From the NCBI GenBank assembly GCA_013203065.1, contig JABMQV010000037.1, positions 1 through 8,113 on the forward strand: a stretch of DNA of 8,113 nucleotides. Reading direction: 5' to 3'. Made by a program: the position numbers and the translations under genes. The notes under the pieces were generated by a model that worked only from the letters and a program-made list of their open reading frames with translations, was not told where the DNA came from and ran no database searches. Shown piece after piece: positions 3,515 to 8,113 of the stretch (the stretch's first letter is position 1; each line of letters starts with the position of its first letter). Origin of the DNA: Desulfobacteraceae bacterium. GTDB taxonomy: Bacteria > Desulfobacterota > DSM-4660 > Desulfatiglandales > Desulfatiglandaceae.

Positions 3515-4561
3515 TTATTCTACCTCTTTACTGTATTTTCGGTACAATCCTCGAAATTGGTGGTAGGACAACCCCAGGATTTGAGCCGCCTTTCTTTGGT
3601 TATGCCTCGCCTGTTTCAATGCCCTGGTTAGAAGACGGATTTTGAGCTCTTTCACGGCCTGATTTAAGGGTTTATCCATGGATTCCTCAATCGGAGGTTT
3701 TTCGGGATCAATGGTTTCCCCATGTTTCGACGTGTGACCCTCAGCCAGGGGAGAACGGAACGGGTCGAACACGATTTCCGTGATCAGTGATGAATCCGCC
3801 CGATACACCGCTCGTTCCACCAGGTTTTTGAGTTCGCGGACATTCCCGGGCCAGGAATATCTTGTGAGTGCCGTGGTGGCTTCCTTGCTGAACCGGGGTA
3901 TTTCTTCCCGGCCCAATTCAAAGGCCATCCGAGCAGCGAAATGCTCTGCCAACAAAATGATATCTTCCCTTCGTTCCCTCAGGGCGGGCAAAAACAAGAC
4001 TTCAAAAGTTAGCCTGTCGAGCAGATCTCGTTTGAACCGTCCCTCTTCCGCCAGACCAACCAAATCAGCATTGGTGGCTGCAATGATGCGTACATCCACT
4101 TCAATGCTCTCCGAACTGCCAACACGTTCAAAGGTCCCGTATTCCACCACGCGCAATATTTTTTCCTGGACTTCCAGGGGGATGCTGCCTATCTCATCGA
4201 GGAACAGGGTTCCCTCGTCGGCGGCCTCAAATCTCCCGCTCCGCCTCTCTAAAGCGCCCGTGAAAGCGCCCTTCTCGTAACCAAAGAGCTCTGACTCTAT
4301 CAGGGAAGAACTCAAAGCCGAACAATTGATAGCCACAAAAGACCCCTGCCAGCGTTCTGAAAGGAAGTGCAAACGGGAGGCTGCCAGTTCCTTCCCGGTC
4401 CCCCGCTCACCCATCAAGAGAACGGGCCGATTGATGGGTGCCACACGCGAAAGCCGTTCCTGAAAATCCAGGAACGTCTCGGAGTGCCCCAAGGCCTCAT
4501 CCTTTCCGGCAAGGGGACCTGATCTGACAGTATGTTTTGTATCATCCGTTTCTTTTTTCAT
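3515..4561 (-). CDS. pspF: PspF, sigma-54-dependent activator of the phage-shock operon
   Basis: PspF is a bacterial enhancer-binding AAA+ ATPase that remodels sigma-54 RNA polymerase at the psp promoter and is held inactive by PspA. The 348-residue product has no receiver domain, as in E. coli PspF. Visible motifs are Walker A GERGTGKE (51-58), the sigma-54 contact loop GAFTGA (98-103), Walker B GTLFLDEI (117-124), a sensor segment ATNADL (162-167), arginine-rich [10 protein letters not shown] (175-184) and [10 protein letters not shown] (237-246). A Fis-type helix-turn-helix ends it (about 318-344). [11 protein letters not shown] keeps the tryptophan (Trp71) that corresponds to the PspA-binding patch of E. 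coli PspF. The gene diverges from pspA with a 177-base gap. The start has only a poor Shine-Dalgarno sequence, which would suit low regulator expression. Compared with E. coli it has a longer N-terminus (about 15 residues) and a longer linker before the HTH. Confidence 0.95.
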
Positions 4562-4606
4562 GGTGAAAAACCAAATTAAATGGTCATTTTAACTATTATT
4601 CGGCAA

Positions 4607-4636
4607 TTTATACCATATTAAGTTATGATATGTCAA
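4607..4636 (-). promoter_or_regulatory. Sigma-70-type promoter of pspF
   Basis: On the minus strand TTGACA (4631-4636) is followed after 18 nt by TATAAA (4607-4612), giving 11 of 12 consensus bases. The expected transcript start near 4600 leaves a leader of about 39 nt before the pspF ATG. The spacer contains the palindrome at 4614-4632. Confidence 0.68.
4614..4632. promoter_or_regulatory. Candidate PspF upstream activating site overlapping the pspF promoter
   Basis: CATATTAAGTTATGATATG has perfect 5-bp outer arms (CATAT/ATATG). Its centre is about 88 bp upstream of the predicted pspA start, the range where PspF sites lie in E. coli, and it fills the spacer of the pspF promoter. That position would allow one site both to activate pspA and to repress pspF, as known for the E. 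coli locus. An inverted pair ATGGT (4580-4584) and ACCAT (4612-4616) may mark a second site. This is inference from position and symmetry. Confidence 0.38.
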
Positions 4637-4645
4637 TACAGTAAC

Positions 4646-4663
4646 CCCCTGATCCCCCAGGGG
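4646..4663. repeat. Perfect inverted repeat between activator site and sigma-54 promoter
   Basis: CCCCTG and CAGGGG (6 bp each) flank ATCCCC. The repeat lies roughly 50-65 bp upstream of the predicted pspA start, in the stretch that must bend for an enhancer-bound activator to reach the polymerase. Its role is unknown. Confidence 0.35.
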
Positions 4664-4684
4664 ATATGGGGAAAACGGTCTGGT

Positions 4685-4700
4685 TGGCATAATTTCTGCT
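4685..4700 (+). promoter_or_regulatory. Sigma-54 promoter of pspABC
   Basis: TGGCATAATTTCTGCT matches the sigma-54 consensus TGGCACG-N4-TTGCT with the invariant GG and GC elements exactly 10 bp apart and three differences elsewhere. Transcription should begin near 4710, leaving about 28 nt before the pspA ATG. The adjacent, divergent pspF gene encodes the expected activator. Confidence 0.8.
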
Positions 4701-4738
4701 TCCCAAACATGTCAAACAAAAAAACTGGAGGTCTTATT

Positions 4739-5416
4739 ATGGGAATATTTACGCGATTTCGTGACATCATCAATTCAAATATCAATGCGATGTTGGACAA
4801 GGCGGAGGATCCTGAAAAACTGATAAAACTCATGATCCATGAAATGGAGGACACTCTCGTTGAGATCAAGGCTTCTTGCGCGGGTGTCATGGCCAACCGA
4901 AAAAAGGCTGAGCACCGATTGGACCAGATCCAATCCAAGGTGAAATACTGGGGGAACAATGCGGAACTCGCAGTCAACAAAGGCAGGGATGATCTTGCCC
5001 GTGAAGCCCTCGTGGAAAAACGCAGATTGACAGAGATGGAAACTCCCCTTGAAAAACAAATCATGGAACATAACAGTTTGATTGAGCAGTATCAGGAGGA
5101 CATCCGGCAACTCGAGGACAGGCTCAGAATGGCTCGGGAAAAGCGACGGGGGCTGGTACAACGCCACCTTCGGGCAAAAGGAAAAAAACGGACCCAGGAA
5201 GAAATCCGTCGCATGGATAGTGCCGAAACCATATTCAAATTCGAGCAACTGGAAAACCGCATCGAACGAATGGAGGCCGAAGCGGATTTGGTTAATTTCG
5301 GAAAAGGTCCAGCCCTTGAAGGGGAATTTGAGAACCTTTTGGTTGACGATGAGATCGAAAAAGAGCTTCAAGACCTGAAATCCTCTTTACAGAAGGAAAC
5401 TACCACGCCCGCGTGA
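4739..5416 (+). CDS. pspA: PspA, phage-shock protein A (PspA/IM30 family)
   Basis: PspA is a peripheral inner-membrane protein of the ESCRT-III-like superfamily. It stabilises damaged membranes and, when free, binds and inhibits PspF. The product is 225 residues, close to the 222 of E. coli PspA. It begins with the amphipathic helix MGIFTRFRDIINSNINAMLD. The family segment KAEDPEKLIKLMIHEMEDTLVEIK follows as two shorter pieces around residues 21-44. Long charged coiled-coil helices then run to about residue 190, ending with an acidic tail. ATG 4739 was chosen because GGAGG lies 7 nt upstream and the product starts at the known N-terminal helix. A longer frame from 4625 would run through the sigma-54 promoter. 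It is the first gene of pspABC, with 154 nt before pspB. Confidence 0.96.
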   Translation: MGIFTRFRDIINSNINAMLDKAEDPEKLIKLMIHEMEDTLVEIKASCAGVMANRKKAEHRLDQIQSKVKYWGNNAELAVNKGRDDLAREALVEKRRLTEMETPLEKQIMEHNSLIEQYQEDIRQLEDRLRMAREKRRGLVQRHLRAKGKKRTQEEIRRMDSAETIFKFEQLENRIERMEAEADLVNFGKGPALEGEFENLLVDDEIEKELQDLKSSLQKETTTPA

Positions 5417-5570
5417 GCCTCGAAGGGGTTCTTTGTTCTGTACGACCACCTGAATACCTCTTGAGAAAATACACGGGATCAGATAATGTAGATCGGTGTA
5501 CACCCATTCATTAGGGCAAACAGGTGTAATTTAAGCCGTTTTCTTGACATCAAATGGAGTTGAATCAGCC
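5417..5570 (+). other. pspA-pspB intergenic segment with a perfect 10-bp palindrome
   Basis: No reading frame of note lies here, although the gap is long for adjacent psp genes. GGTGTACACC at 5495-5504 is a perfect palindrome, and GGTGTA recurs at 5523-5528. No strong hairpin followed by a U-run is visible, so read-through from pspA into pspBC is expected. Confidence 0.4.
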
Positions 5571-5819
5571 ATGCATGGAGCGTTGATGTTAGCCACCATC
5601 TTCGGGGGCACCATCCTGGTACTGGCAATTATCGGGAGCACGATTCTGATGGGAATCAAGATCCTGAAGGGAGGAGCATCCCGCAGCGACCAGAAAATGC
5701 AATCCGATGAAGCCAAAGTAATTCAAGGAATCTACCAAGGCCTTTCACGAATGGAAAAACGGGTGGAAGCACTTGAAACCTTGATTTTCGACCTTGAGAA
5801 AAAGGAAAAGGAACTATGA
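5571..5819 (+). CDS. pspB: PspB, phage-shock protein B
   Basis: PspB is a small inner-membrane protein that works with PspC to sense envelope stress and draw PspA to the membrane, freeing PspF. The 82-residue product (74 in E. coli) has one N-terminal membrane helix, about residues 5-27. A basic and polar stretch follows. The C-terminal coiled coil contains SRMEKRVEALETLIFD, which parallels the RMRERIQALESILD region of E. coli PspB. ATG 5571 places the membrane helix at the very N-terminus, with GGAG 11 nt upstream. A TTG at 5544 in the same frame has no ribosome binding site and is less likely. The stop overlaps the pspC start (ATGA), so the two are probably translationally coupled. Confidence 0.88.
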   Translation: MHGALMLATIFGGTILVLAIIGSTILMGIKILKGGASRSDQKMQSDEAKVIQGIYQGLSRMEKRVEALETLIFDLEKKEKEL

Positions 5820-6199
5820 GAAAATTTAAAAATATATTTCACGGTGGGCTGTACCGTTCCAGAAACGGTGTCATATTGGGTGTCTGCAGAGGCATTGCCG
5901 AGTATTTTGATTTTTCTGTTTTTTGGGGCAGAATCATTGCCTTGGCATTACTCTTCATCAGCGGTTTCTGGCCCACCATGGCCCTTTATTTTATTGCAGG
6001 CCTGTTGATGAAACCTGAACCTGTCTTGCCCATCAGCGGGGAGGACGAACAGGAGTTTTATGACGGTTACATTCATTCTCGGAAAGGGGCGGTGGACCAA
6101 CTCAACCGGAGATATGGGGCCCTGGAACGGCGTATTCAACATATGGAGCACTCGGTGACCAGGCGAGAATTTGATTGGGAGAACAGACTGAACAGCTAG
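5816..6199 (+). CDS. pspC: PspC, phage-shock protein C
   Basis: PspC is an inner-membrane partner of PspB that senses membrane stress and relieves PspA inhibition of PspF. The 127-residue product carries the PspC domain at its start: GLYRSRNGVILGVCRGIAEY (about 11-30). A hydrophobic membrane region follows (about 35-67), with a break at SGFWPT suggesting a re-entrant or two-segment arrangement. The C-terminal part (about 90-127) is a charged, heptad-like helix suited to coiled-coil contacts. The length is close to E. coli PspC (119). It overlaps pspB by 4 bases, with AAGGA just upstream of its ATG. It is the last psp gene and converges on the selenoprotein gene, 61 nt apart, with no clear terminator beyond a U-rich CTTTCTTTTTCT after its stop. 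Confidence 0.93.
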   Translation: MRKFKNIFHGGLYRSRNGVILGVCRGIAEYFDFSVFWGRIIALALLFISGFWPTMALYFIAGLLMKPEPVLPISGEDEQEFYDGYIHSRKGAVDQLNRRYGALERRIQHMEHSVTRREFDWENRLNS

Positions 6200-6260: not shown

Positions 6261-6890
6261 TTATGCTTCGGGACTCCGTCTGTTTATATGATTTGTTTTC
6301 ATAAACCGTTCCAATATCTCGTAGGACTGAGCCCCCACAACGGTTCTCCCGTTCATCATAAAGGTTGGGACAGCCGTCACCCCCTTATCACCGGACCGGG
6401 CCCAGTCTGAATCAACAGATTTCCTCAAGGCCCTTGTCTCCAGCACCTCCTGGGCCTCTTCGCCGGGAAGGCTTACAGATATGGCCAGCTCTACCAGGTC
6501 AGGTATTTTCGCGATATTTATGCCATCCACAAAATAGGCGTGAAAGGCCGCCATGTGAAACACCTCTCCTTTTCCCTTCACCTCCGCCCATTTCCCAAGT
6601 TCCTGGGCCAACCGGCTATTGTACGTCATGGTTCTCTGACCCAAGGGTAATCCCTCAGCATCCGCCACCCGCCTGAGTCTGGCCATGATCTCGGGGATGT
6701 TTACCATACGTCCTTCAAAGAGCTTTTCAAGGGACAGCCCTTCTTCCGGTGTATTCGGGTGAAGGGGGAATGCAGTCCATTGAATTTCAATCTCATAGTT
6801 TTTCCGCAAGCGATCAACACGACCTGTGATGAAGTAGCACCAGGGTCAGACATAGTCGGAAAAAATCTCCAGTATTGCAGGTTCGGCCAT
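6261..6890 (-). CDS. DsbA/FrnE-family thiol oxidoreductase, probable selenoprotein with UPWC active site
   Basis: The frame runs from ATG 6890 to TAA 6261 with one internal TGA at 6846-6848 (codon 15). Read as selenocysteine, the 209-residue product begins MAEPAILEIFSDYV-U-PWCYF. This is the thioredoxin-fold active site that is normally CPWC in DsbA/FrnE-type proteins, which catalyse thiol-disulfide exchange. A helical insertion follows (about 50-165), then the cis-proline loop GVTAVPTFMMNG (Pro175) and a final helix. FrnE-like features include FPLHP near residue 41 and the absence of a signal peptide, suggesting a cytoplasmic enzyme. AGGAGG lies immediately before ATG 6890, with GAGG 6 nt away. 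A SECIS-like hairpin follows the TGA. Alternatives are a TGC-to-TGA nonsense mutation or a sequencing error, but the rest of the gene is intact. Other genes here use TGA as a real stop, so recoding would be specific. A conventional call would begin at TTG 6809 and lose the active site. Confidence 0.85.
6810..6838 (-). promoter_or_regulatory. SECIS-like hairpin after the in-frame TGA
   Basis: In the transcript, with base 1 immediately after the UGA, CAC (18-20) pairs with GUG (26-28) around the loop AGGUC. Beyond a U-U mismatch, UCA (14-16) pairs with UGA (30-32). Further weak pairs can extend the stem to bases 8-36. The loop contains GGU at bases 22-24. In the E. coli fdhF SECIS the essential GGU lies at about bases 19-21 after UGA, also at the tip of a short stem. 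This agrees with bacterial SECIS rules as I know them (a G among the first loop bases, loop within about 11-37 nt). A competing fold pairs CCUG.UG with CACAGG. Confidence 0.58.
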
Positions 6891-6993
6891 ATGCCTCCTC
6901 AGTGACCTTTGTTTGCATCAGGTGAACAGGGACTCCACCTTCCCAGGAGAGAAAGAGCGGAGAGACGATAAATATCTGTTTCTTTTGACGGTG

Positions 6994-7218: not shown

Positions 7219-7878
7219 ATGTCATGGCACATCTTCATGCGGACTTTGTTGTTTTGTATATTGTTAGTGTGTCTTACGCCCGCCTGGGCCTCCCAGAGCG
7301 TGGTGGTCGCTGATTTCTCTGCGGGTGTTGACAAGGATGGCGTCCCTCAGGGATGGCAGCTCAAGGAAAAGACAGGGAATGCGGATTTTGCCGTTGTCAG
7401 AGACGGTCTTGTAACCGCGCTTCGCCTGAGGAGCCAAGAGACCTCATTTGCGCTTCAGAGGGCGGTGGATGTAAATCCCCAGTTGTATCCGTTGATTTCC
7501 TGGAAATGGAAAGTAACCAAACTGCCCGAGGGGGGGGATTGCAGAAATTCCAAGACCGATGACCAGGCAGCCCAGCTTTTCCTCGCATTTTCCAACGCAA
7601 ACGTTATCTCCTATATCTGGGACACAACCGCGCCACAGGGCCTGGTCGAGGATACCTGGTCATTTCCCTTTGTGACCGTCAAGGCGATTGTCCTCCGTTC
7701 CGGACATTCAGAAACCGGCAAGTGGGTAACGGAGACCCGAAATGCCTACGAAGATTACAGGGAGCTTTTTGGCCATGAACCTCCCGGGGTCGCCGGCATC
7801 AGGATCCAGATAAACTCTCAACATACTGAAACTTCGGGAGAAAGCTTTTTTGCGGATGTAATATTCAAACGGCAATGA
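7219..7878 (+). CDS. Exported DUF3047 family protein
   Basis: I recognise the family (DUF3047), but its function is not known to me. The 219-residue product has a signal peptide: hydrophobic core about residues 8-20 and AWA before likely cleavage near residue 25. The mature part should be periplasmic and soluble. Recognisable conserved stretches are VADFSAGVDKDGVPQGWQLK near the mature N-terminus, LISWKWKVTKLPEGGD in the middle, DDQAAQLFLAF, ISYIWDT, ETRNAYEDYRELFG and a closing FFADVIFKR. The pattern suggests a compact beta-sandwich, possibly carbohydrate-binding-like, which is inference. AAAGGA lies 8 nt before ATG 7219. An internal ATG seven codons in would also leave a signal peptide. It has its own promoter and ends one base before the convergent TfoX-like gene. 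Confidence 0.86.
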   Translation: MSWHIFMRTLLFCILLVCLTPAWASQSVVVADFSAGVDKDGVPQGWQLKEKTGNADFAVVRDGLVTALRLRSQETSFALQRAVDVNPQLYPLISWKWKVTKLPEGGDCRNSKTDDQAAQLFLAFSNANVISYIWDTTAPQGLVEDTWSFPFVTVKAIVLRSGHSETGKWVTETRNAYEDYRELFGHEPPGVAGIRIQINSQHTETSGESFFADVIFKRQ

Positions 7879-8113
7879 TCAAGGATTCATCACTTCCTGC
7901 CCCGCTTTTTCTTTTCTTTTTGAGGCACGAACGGCCGCATCAAAGGCCTTTTCTGCCCACCGGAAAAGGACCCCGGAACTCTCCATTGCATCGTGCGGCG
8001 CCTGATAGTAAGACATGGAAAGCTCTTTTCCTTTTCTTGTGTAAGTAAAGGGGGGAAGTCCCCTTGCTTCGAAATCGGGACGGTTCCTTTCATCAGCCTT
8101 CAGGTAGAAAGTG
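7879..8113 (-). CDS. TfoX/Sxy N-terminal-domain protein, C-terminal part (start beyond the window)
   Basis: The minus-strand frame is open from the window edge (first full codon 8112-8110) to TGA at 7879-7881, giving the last 77 residues. FYLKADERNRPDFEARGLPP and the following FTYTRKGKELSMSYYQAP match the pattern of the TfoX N-terminal domain (YLKAD...FE..G..PF.Y...GK...MSY...P, then a helix with W.E.A...A). Many such proteins are short, single-domain and of unknown role. The name comes from Sxy/TfoX, a competence regulator in gammaproteobacteria, and that role should not be assumed here. A lysine-rich tail (ASKRKEKAG) follows. The stop abuts the DUF3047 stop with no intergenic base. Confidence 0.83.
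   Translation of the reverse strand, partial: TFYLKADERNRPDFEARGLPPFTYTRKGKELSMSYYQAPHDAMESSGVLFRWAEKAFDAAVRASKRKEKAGQEVMNP

Follow-up and report, generated by a model that had tools for sequence, protein, structure and literature searches.

A FrnE/DsbA-type oxidoreductase gene of a Desulfobacteraceae bacterium with a conserved in-frame TGA, probably read as selenocysteine

The minus-strand gene at positions 6261 to 6890 of the stretch of Desulfobacteraceae DNA analysed here (8,113 nucleotides, hereafter the window) very probably encodes a thiol-disulphide oxidoreductase of the FrnE/DsbA type whose active site is Sec-Pro-Trp-Cys; the UGA at codon 15 would be recoded as selenocysteine (Sec) by means of a small hairpin at nucleotides 17-35, counted from the TGA. 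As judged by sequence comparison, the frame, the fold family, the conservation of the TGA and of the hairpin, and the presence of Sec machinery in the closest relatives are established. An earlier note on this DNA had proposed a selenoprotein with a UPWC site, and that proposal is supported by a TGA at the same codon in homologues, by homologues with Cys, by Sec machinery in the two closest genomes, by the conserved hairpin and by the intact frame.

The gene and its reading frame

The features of the gene are as follows.

6261..6890, minus strand: gene for the predicted Sec-containing FrnE/DsbA-type protein, ATG to TAA, 209 codons, TGA codon 15 read as Sec, PF01323; same layout in 80 relatives
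6846..6848, minus strand: in-frame TGA, codon 15, predicted Sec of the UPWC motif; TGA in 81 of 81 genes
6837..6848, minus strand: active-site motif U15-P16-W17-C18, from translation and alignment
6894..6900, minus strand: probable ribosome binding site GAGGAGG, ending 3 bases 5' of the ATG, from sequence inspection
6366..6368, minus strand: probable cis-Pro loop, Pro175 within TAVPTF, invariant in 25 sequences
6261..6809, minus strand: short 182-residue frame with a TTG start (6809-6807), the yield of standard table-11 gene calling in place of the full gene

The TGA (6848-6846) stands exactly where the earlier note had placed it, at the first active-site Cys position of a CPWC motif. It is the sole interruption of the 209-codon frame, and the intactness of the frame that had been claimed is confirmed: the frame is otherwise open from ATG to TAA, and the read-through protein matched the Pfam family DSBA (PF01323) across residues 7-196 with 114.6 bits (cut-off 25.6, E 6.4e-33). 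The ribosome binding site that had been remarked on is the GAGGAGG 3 bases ahead of the ATG. The window protein has a single Cys, C18, and Pro175 is probably the cis-Pro that is typical of thioredoxin folds. No NCBIfam model matched above its cut-off, no Rfam model matched anywhere in the window at gathering scores, and ARAGORN found no tRNA within the window.

A dead gene would be expected to show an excess of non-synonymous differences of roughly 3:1. Relative to its closest homologues, the window gene had 8 synonymous and 7 non-synonymous codon differences to L001, 9 and 10 to L002, and 84 and 68 to L003, of which 9 and 3 were located 5' of the TGA. Judged by these raw codon-difference counts, the frame is constrained at the protein level on both sides of the TGA, and signs of decay, which together with a lack of TGA homologues had been named as grounds for abandoning the selenoprotein reading, were absent from the differences to L001-L003.

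Conservation of the TGA and annotation of the gene

To place the codon among relatives, we scanned genome contigs from a collection with one genome per species, which yielded 494 relatives, of which the best 80 were kept. Homologues with TGA at the same codon, which the earlier note had suggested looking for, were found at all 80 of these best loci, or 81 of 81 with the window included; 76 of the 80 calls were made by a motif script and four (L049, L067, L069 and L075) were read individually. The record titles of the 80 loci were mostly deltaproteobacterial (Desulfobacterales, Syntrophales and others), with the exception of Nitrospiraceae (L064, L067), Thermodesulfovibrionia (L069), Abyssobacteria (L039) and an "alphaproteobacterium" (L075).

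Were the in-frame TGA known from a single metagenome-like sequence, the codon could be taken for a true stop, in a dead gene or through a sequencing error at that base, with no full-length protein made. We consider this very improbable, since the same TGA recurs at 80 of 80 best loci from the relatives' assemblies, the relatives' frames are otherwise open and of matching length, both sides of the TGA appear constrained, and the hairpin described below is conserved.

We also sampled more widely, drawing 297 genomes of the phylum to which G002, the genome of L002, belongs; 61 of these had a match at E 1e-20, giving 63 rows. Among rows with at least 44% identity, a TGA was located inside the match, counted anywhere in it, in 41 of 42, the sole exception being the downstream piece of a split gene in G155, the other piece of which has the TGA. 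Counted in the same way, rows with at most 39% identity had a TGA inside the match in 10 of 21 and none in 11 of 21. All 11 whole-gene rows without TGA that were fetched had TGC or TGT at the codon. Together with the Cys in 3 of the best 120 proteins (below), these genes bear out the expectation that Cys-containing homologues align at this position. One locus, L100 (G248:C35:7830-8438), contained two TGA codons inside the match rather than one.

The protein-database entry for the window gene is the short 182-residue form (P0002). A protein search scored 8000 candidates and passed 7795. Among the best 120 of these 7795 homologues, 80 begin past the position of residue 15, while at that position Trp stands in 37 and Cys in 3 (P0015, P0080 and P0099). 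The forecast that automated annotation would truncate the gene is thus borne out.

The codons around the TGA behave differently on its two sides. Upstream, they are conserved as protein, with Phe at -5 in 78 of 80 genes, Asp at -3 in 81 of 81 and Tyr at -2 in 80 of 81, all with synonymous variation. Downstream, the codons themselves are frozen: TTC is used at +5 for Phe in 80 of 80 cases, CGT at +9 for Arg in 67 of 67 and ATT at +10 for Ile in 62 of 64, and for the same residues further downstream in these genes several codons are used.

These patterns bear on the possibility that translation begins at an internal start past the TGA, giving the 182-residue protein that the databases annotate and leaving the upstream part unused. 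The in-frame TTG at 6809-6807 in the window and the 80 of the best 120 homologues recorded as starting past the codon speak in favour of such a start. Against it, codons 1-14 show conservation at the protein level, the frozen codons 3' of the TGA would be left unexplained, and the short form, as placed on the structural model described below, would be left without an active site, without the first strand (5-11) and with only half of the first helix (16-31). We therefore give an internal start very little credence and retain the full-length frame with Sec at codon 15.

The Trp-bearing entries raise the question of whether a variant code or readthrough places Trp, or some other standard amino acid, at the TGA, giving WPWC. 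A gene caller that uses a code such as table 4 writes TGA as Trp. For three of the 37 Trp-bearing proteins a locus matching over 100 residues was available, and its codon at this place is TGA, so that the Trp derives from the gene caller's code; for the other 34 we infer the same. The 37 WPWC proteins among the best 120 (P0007-P0115) thus have Trp at a catalytic residue in the database, probably as a TGA read as Trp. Besides these 37 entries, which are what favours a Trp reading, the evidence points the other way: TGA terminates 39 of these 81 genes (29 end in TAA and 13 in TAG), the 11 of 11 non-TGA homologues have Cys, and the closest relatives possess Sec machinery. Three other complete genes in the window (4625-5416, 5544-5819 and 7219-7878) and an incomplete one (7879-8112) also end in TGA; given the three complete ones, TGA is a normal stop here. 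A standard amino acid at codon 15 is accordingly the least probable of the readings considered, with next to no chance of being correct, and Sec remains the preferred one.

The hairpin downstream of the TGA and the selenocysteine machinery

The hairpin occupies the following positions.

6814..6832, minus strand: predicted SECIS hairpin, nucleotides 17-35 (TGA = 1-3), with pairs 17-35, 18-34, 19-33, 21-31, 22-30 and 23-29
6825-6821, minus strand: hairpin loop, nucleotides 24-28, AGGUC in RNA

Pairing of nucleotides 17-23 with 29-35 was first proposed from an alignment of 81 stretches, and RNAalifold run on the alignment returned the same hairpin, with a small consensus energy of -2.89. Over the 75 distinct rows of the alignment, 99.8% of 450 cells were paired. 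Changes on both sides of a pair were seen in 12 cells, as compared to 1.3 in shuffled alignments, and none of 500 shuffles reached as high a number. The pairs with such changes numbered two (21-31 with U-A, C-G and A-U; 19-33 with A-U and G-C), which is not exceptional since 33 of the 500 shuffles reached it. Sliding the 3' partners by +3 gave a covariation score of 0.124 versus 0.109 for the hairpin, yet left only 52.9% of the cells paired.

The full set of six pairs was present in 80 of the 81 genes, and the last gene had five, a count in which the genes share ancestry and are not independent tests, and in which the helix was chosen on the same genes. Random synonymous recodings drawn from the pooled codon usage had six pairs in 1.4% of cases, or 2.7% for the window's own stretch. 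For a held-out set, we used 20 stretches, consisting of every whole-gene row that has no TGA (11) and 9 of the 21 rows with TGA. None of the 11 Cys genes had five or six pairs (four pairs in 3, one or two in 8), and the nine held-out TGA genes, at 30-47% identity, had six pairs in 5 and five pairs in 4. A further 28 TGA loci (L091-L118, none removed, although at least L092 comes from a genome, G010, already represented among the first 80) had six pairs in 25, five pairs in 2 and three pairs in 1. The last of these, L113, has another stable hairpin right after the TGA (-21.9 kcal/mol), and its recoding signal may differ.

Taken alone, the 62 nucleotides around the TGA in the window gave no sign of a fold (z +0.96, with 172 of 200 shuffles folding no worse), and the hairpin is evident only by comparing the 81 genes. 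We compared it with a published bacterial SECIS model, of which the available portion specifies a loop of 3-9 nucleotides and an upper stem of 4-16 bp (PMC13188914, Fig. 2A legend), a G within the first two positions of the loop, a UGA-loop distance of 16-37 nucleotides and an energy of at most -7.5 kcal/mol (PMC13188914). The geometry fits, with a 5-nucleotide loop and six pairs with one internal mismatch, as do the loop AGGUC, in which G25 is invariant in the 81 sequences, and the UGA-loop distance of 20 nucleotides (nucleotides 4-23). The energy is -4.1 for the hairpin alone and -7.5 for 48 nucleotides with an added lower stem when the hairpin is enforced, and the window can take up a different, more stable fold at -9.8. 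The AGGUC loop presumably resembles that of the E. coli fdhF element.

The same register recurs in more distant genes. Four DsbA homologues from the same phylum (L135-L138) also have TGA at this codon and carry the hairpin in an identical register, with six pairs in 2 of 4 and five in 2 of 4; they differ from the window gene in being only about 30-35% identical and in having Phe or Tyr for Trp in the motif (UPFC/UPYC). Relatives as distant as these also include Cys forms (L119-L129).

The closest relatives are collinear with the window, L001 at 95.9% over 3179 bases and L002 at 93.9% over 4608 bases, and the genomes of both (G001 and G002) contain selB, selA, a tRNA-Sec match of 73.6 bits and selD with one in-frame TGA. 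More broadly, selB was found above the cut-off in 18 of 18 relatives' genomes and in 17 of 20 in the wider sample, compared with 2 of 14 controls. Split by form, selB was present in 9 of 9 TGA genomes and 8 of 11 Cys-form genomes, the three genomes without it all being of the Cys form; with selB this frequent in both, its co-occurrence is no predictor of the Sec form. A second selB-like gene above the family cut-off was seen in G179, G204 and G004.

The remaining components were sought in nine genomes, which may be incomplete. We found selA in 8 of 9 (G003 being without it; controls 1 of 14) and selD above the cut-off in 8 of 9 (G005 being without it). Matches to the tRNA-Sec model RF01852 exceeded the gathering score in 9 of 9 genomes, and also in 5 of 14 controls, so that this score is not specific; we therefore counted matches of 94-95 nucleotides with at least 69.9 bits, which were present in 8 of 9. 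The match in G003, of 77 nucleotides and 50.3 bits, may be an ordinary tRNA. The best selD match contained one in-frame TGA in G001, G002, G003, G004, G008, G011, G012 and G015, and the SelD of these eight genomes is probably itself a selenoprotein.

Fold, likely function and relation to published families

A DsbA-like thioredoxin domain with UXXC in place of CXXC is indicated by the profile, the model and the structural matches. The AlphaFold2 model, built with 25 sequences and Cys in place of Sec, had a mean pLDDT of 92.7 and a pTM of 0.88, and strand 5-11 and helix 16-31 flank U15-C18. The best PDB profile match was FrnE of Deinococcus radiodurans (E 3.7e-30), which also led the structural matches with a TM of 0.87 at 2.0-2.2 A (5coh, 5cp1). 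This FrnE (PDB 5cnw, 5cp1, 5coh), the closest PDB relative, has a CPWC-type active site, whereas the window protein has Sec for the first Cys, 209 rather than 260 residues, and no C-terminal CXXXXC. Past the motif, 55 of the 81 genes encode no Cys at all and 26 encode one to three.

The available portion of one study describes FrnE as a predicted cytoplasmic oxidoreductase, the mutant of which is sensitive to cadmium and diamide, proposes a disulphide reductase activity, and assigns a regeneration role to the C-terminal CXXXXC, which many but not all FrnE proteins have (PMC8945050). Since FrnE proteins without CXXXXC are named in that text, its absence here is no bar to FrnE membership. The window protein is probably cytosolic, because no signal peptide was seen by eye.

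In the proposed mechanism, SelB bound to the hairpin at nucleotides 17-35 would bring selenocysteyl-tRNA(Sec), and the ribosome would pass the UGA at codon 15 with insertion of Sec. The selenolate of U15 would then attack a substrate disulphide, giving a selenenyl-sulphide for C18 to resolve, after which the U15/C18 pair would be re-reduced by an external thiol system. Here we infer the Sec insertion, the location in the cytosol, whether the enzyme reduces or isomerises, and the substrate and partner.

The neighbouring genes in the window are these.

3515-4561, minus strand: sigma-54 activator, divergent from PspA
4625-5416: PspA, from Pfam
5544-5819: weak PspB-like frame, below the Pfam cut-off
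5816-6199: PspC, from Pfam

Positions 3515-6199 thus hold a phage-shock-type cluster; DUF3047 and TfoX_N are further neighbours. When up to three frames of at least 90 codons per side were clustered over the 81 loci, psp neighbours recurred in 4 of 81, and no shared partner gene emerged, the largest neighbour cluster being seen at 8 of 81 loci and in varying positions. With no cluster larger than this, the context names no partner.

DsbA-like selenoproteins have been reported before. The available portions of the literature describe a DsbA-like selenoprotein of COG2761 with UXXC, from nine sequences in 2005 (PMC1088965), DsbA-like selenoproteins in Anaeromyxobacter dehalogenans, Desulfovibrio desulfuricans and Desulfotomaculum reducens, two of them deltaproteobacteria, in 2006 (PMC1794560), and a 'DsbA 1' family with UxxC and 63 sequences (PMC2398784). 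They also give the figures 41 and 45 for the DsbA-like selenoprotein family (PMC5029168) and list it among predicted families (PMC9312934; PMC13188914, as 'DsbA-like protein form 1', PF01323, UxxC). As far as these portions describe it, the published family shares with our genes PF01323, UxxC, a TGA followed by a small hairpin and deltaproteobacterial carriers, and we found no difference of kind, the likeness being drawn from descriptions. For COG2761 (FrnE) membership, the nearest proxy is the profile match to FrnE in the PDB (E 3.7e-30). That the window gene is a new member of this already published family, usually mis-annotated, is well supported.

A Sec-containing FrnE has also been described in green algae, in Mamiellophyceae and Mesostigma, and by the wording of the available part of that paper it is likewise a FrnE-type protein with Sec (PMC6627142). 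It differs from ours in being eukaryotic, and the likeness is by description alone. In a eukaryotic Sec-FrnE the SECIS is expected in the 3'-UTR.

In the available portions of the open-licence literature that was searched, we found no description of a near Sec-only UPWC branch or of the fixed hairpin. Tentatively, the UPWC proteins could form a nearly Sec-only FrnE branch of deltaproteobacteria and some Nitrospirota, possibly a selenium-dependent disulphide reductase that belongs to the cytosolic core of anaerobes, with very rare return to Cys (3 of the best 120), without C-terminal regenerating cysteines and with a hairpin register that has stayed fixed also in a sister group only about 30% identical; we hold this broader view as somewhat doubtful.

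The gene adds a firmly supported selenoprotein gene for deltaproteobacteria, with a covarying hairpin that can be tested pair by pair. It also exposes an annotation gap, in that, among the best 120 homologues, 80 are cut before the catalytic residue and 37 have Trp there. Finally, the occurrence of Sec and Cys forms within one phylum offers a direct test of what selenium gains for a FrnE-type enzyme.
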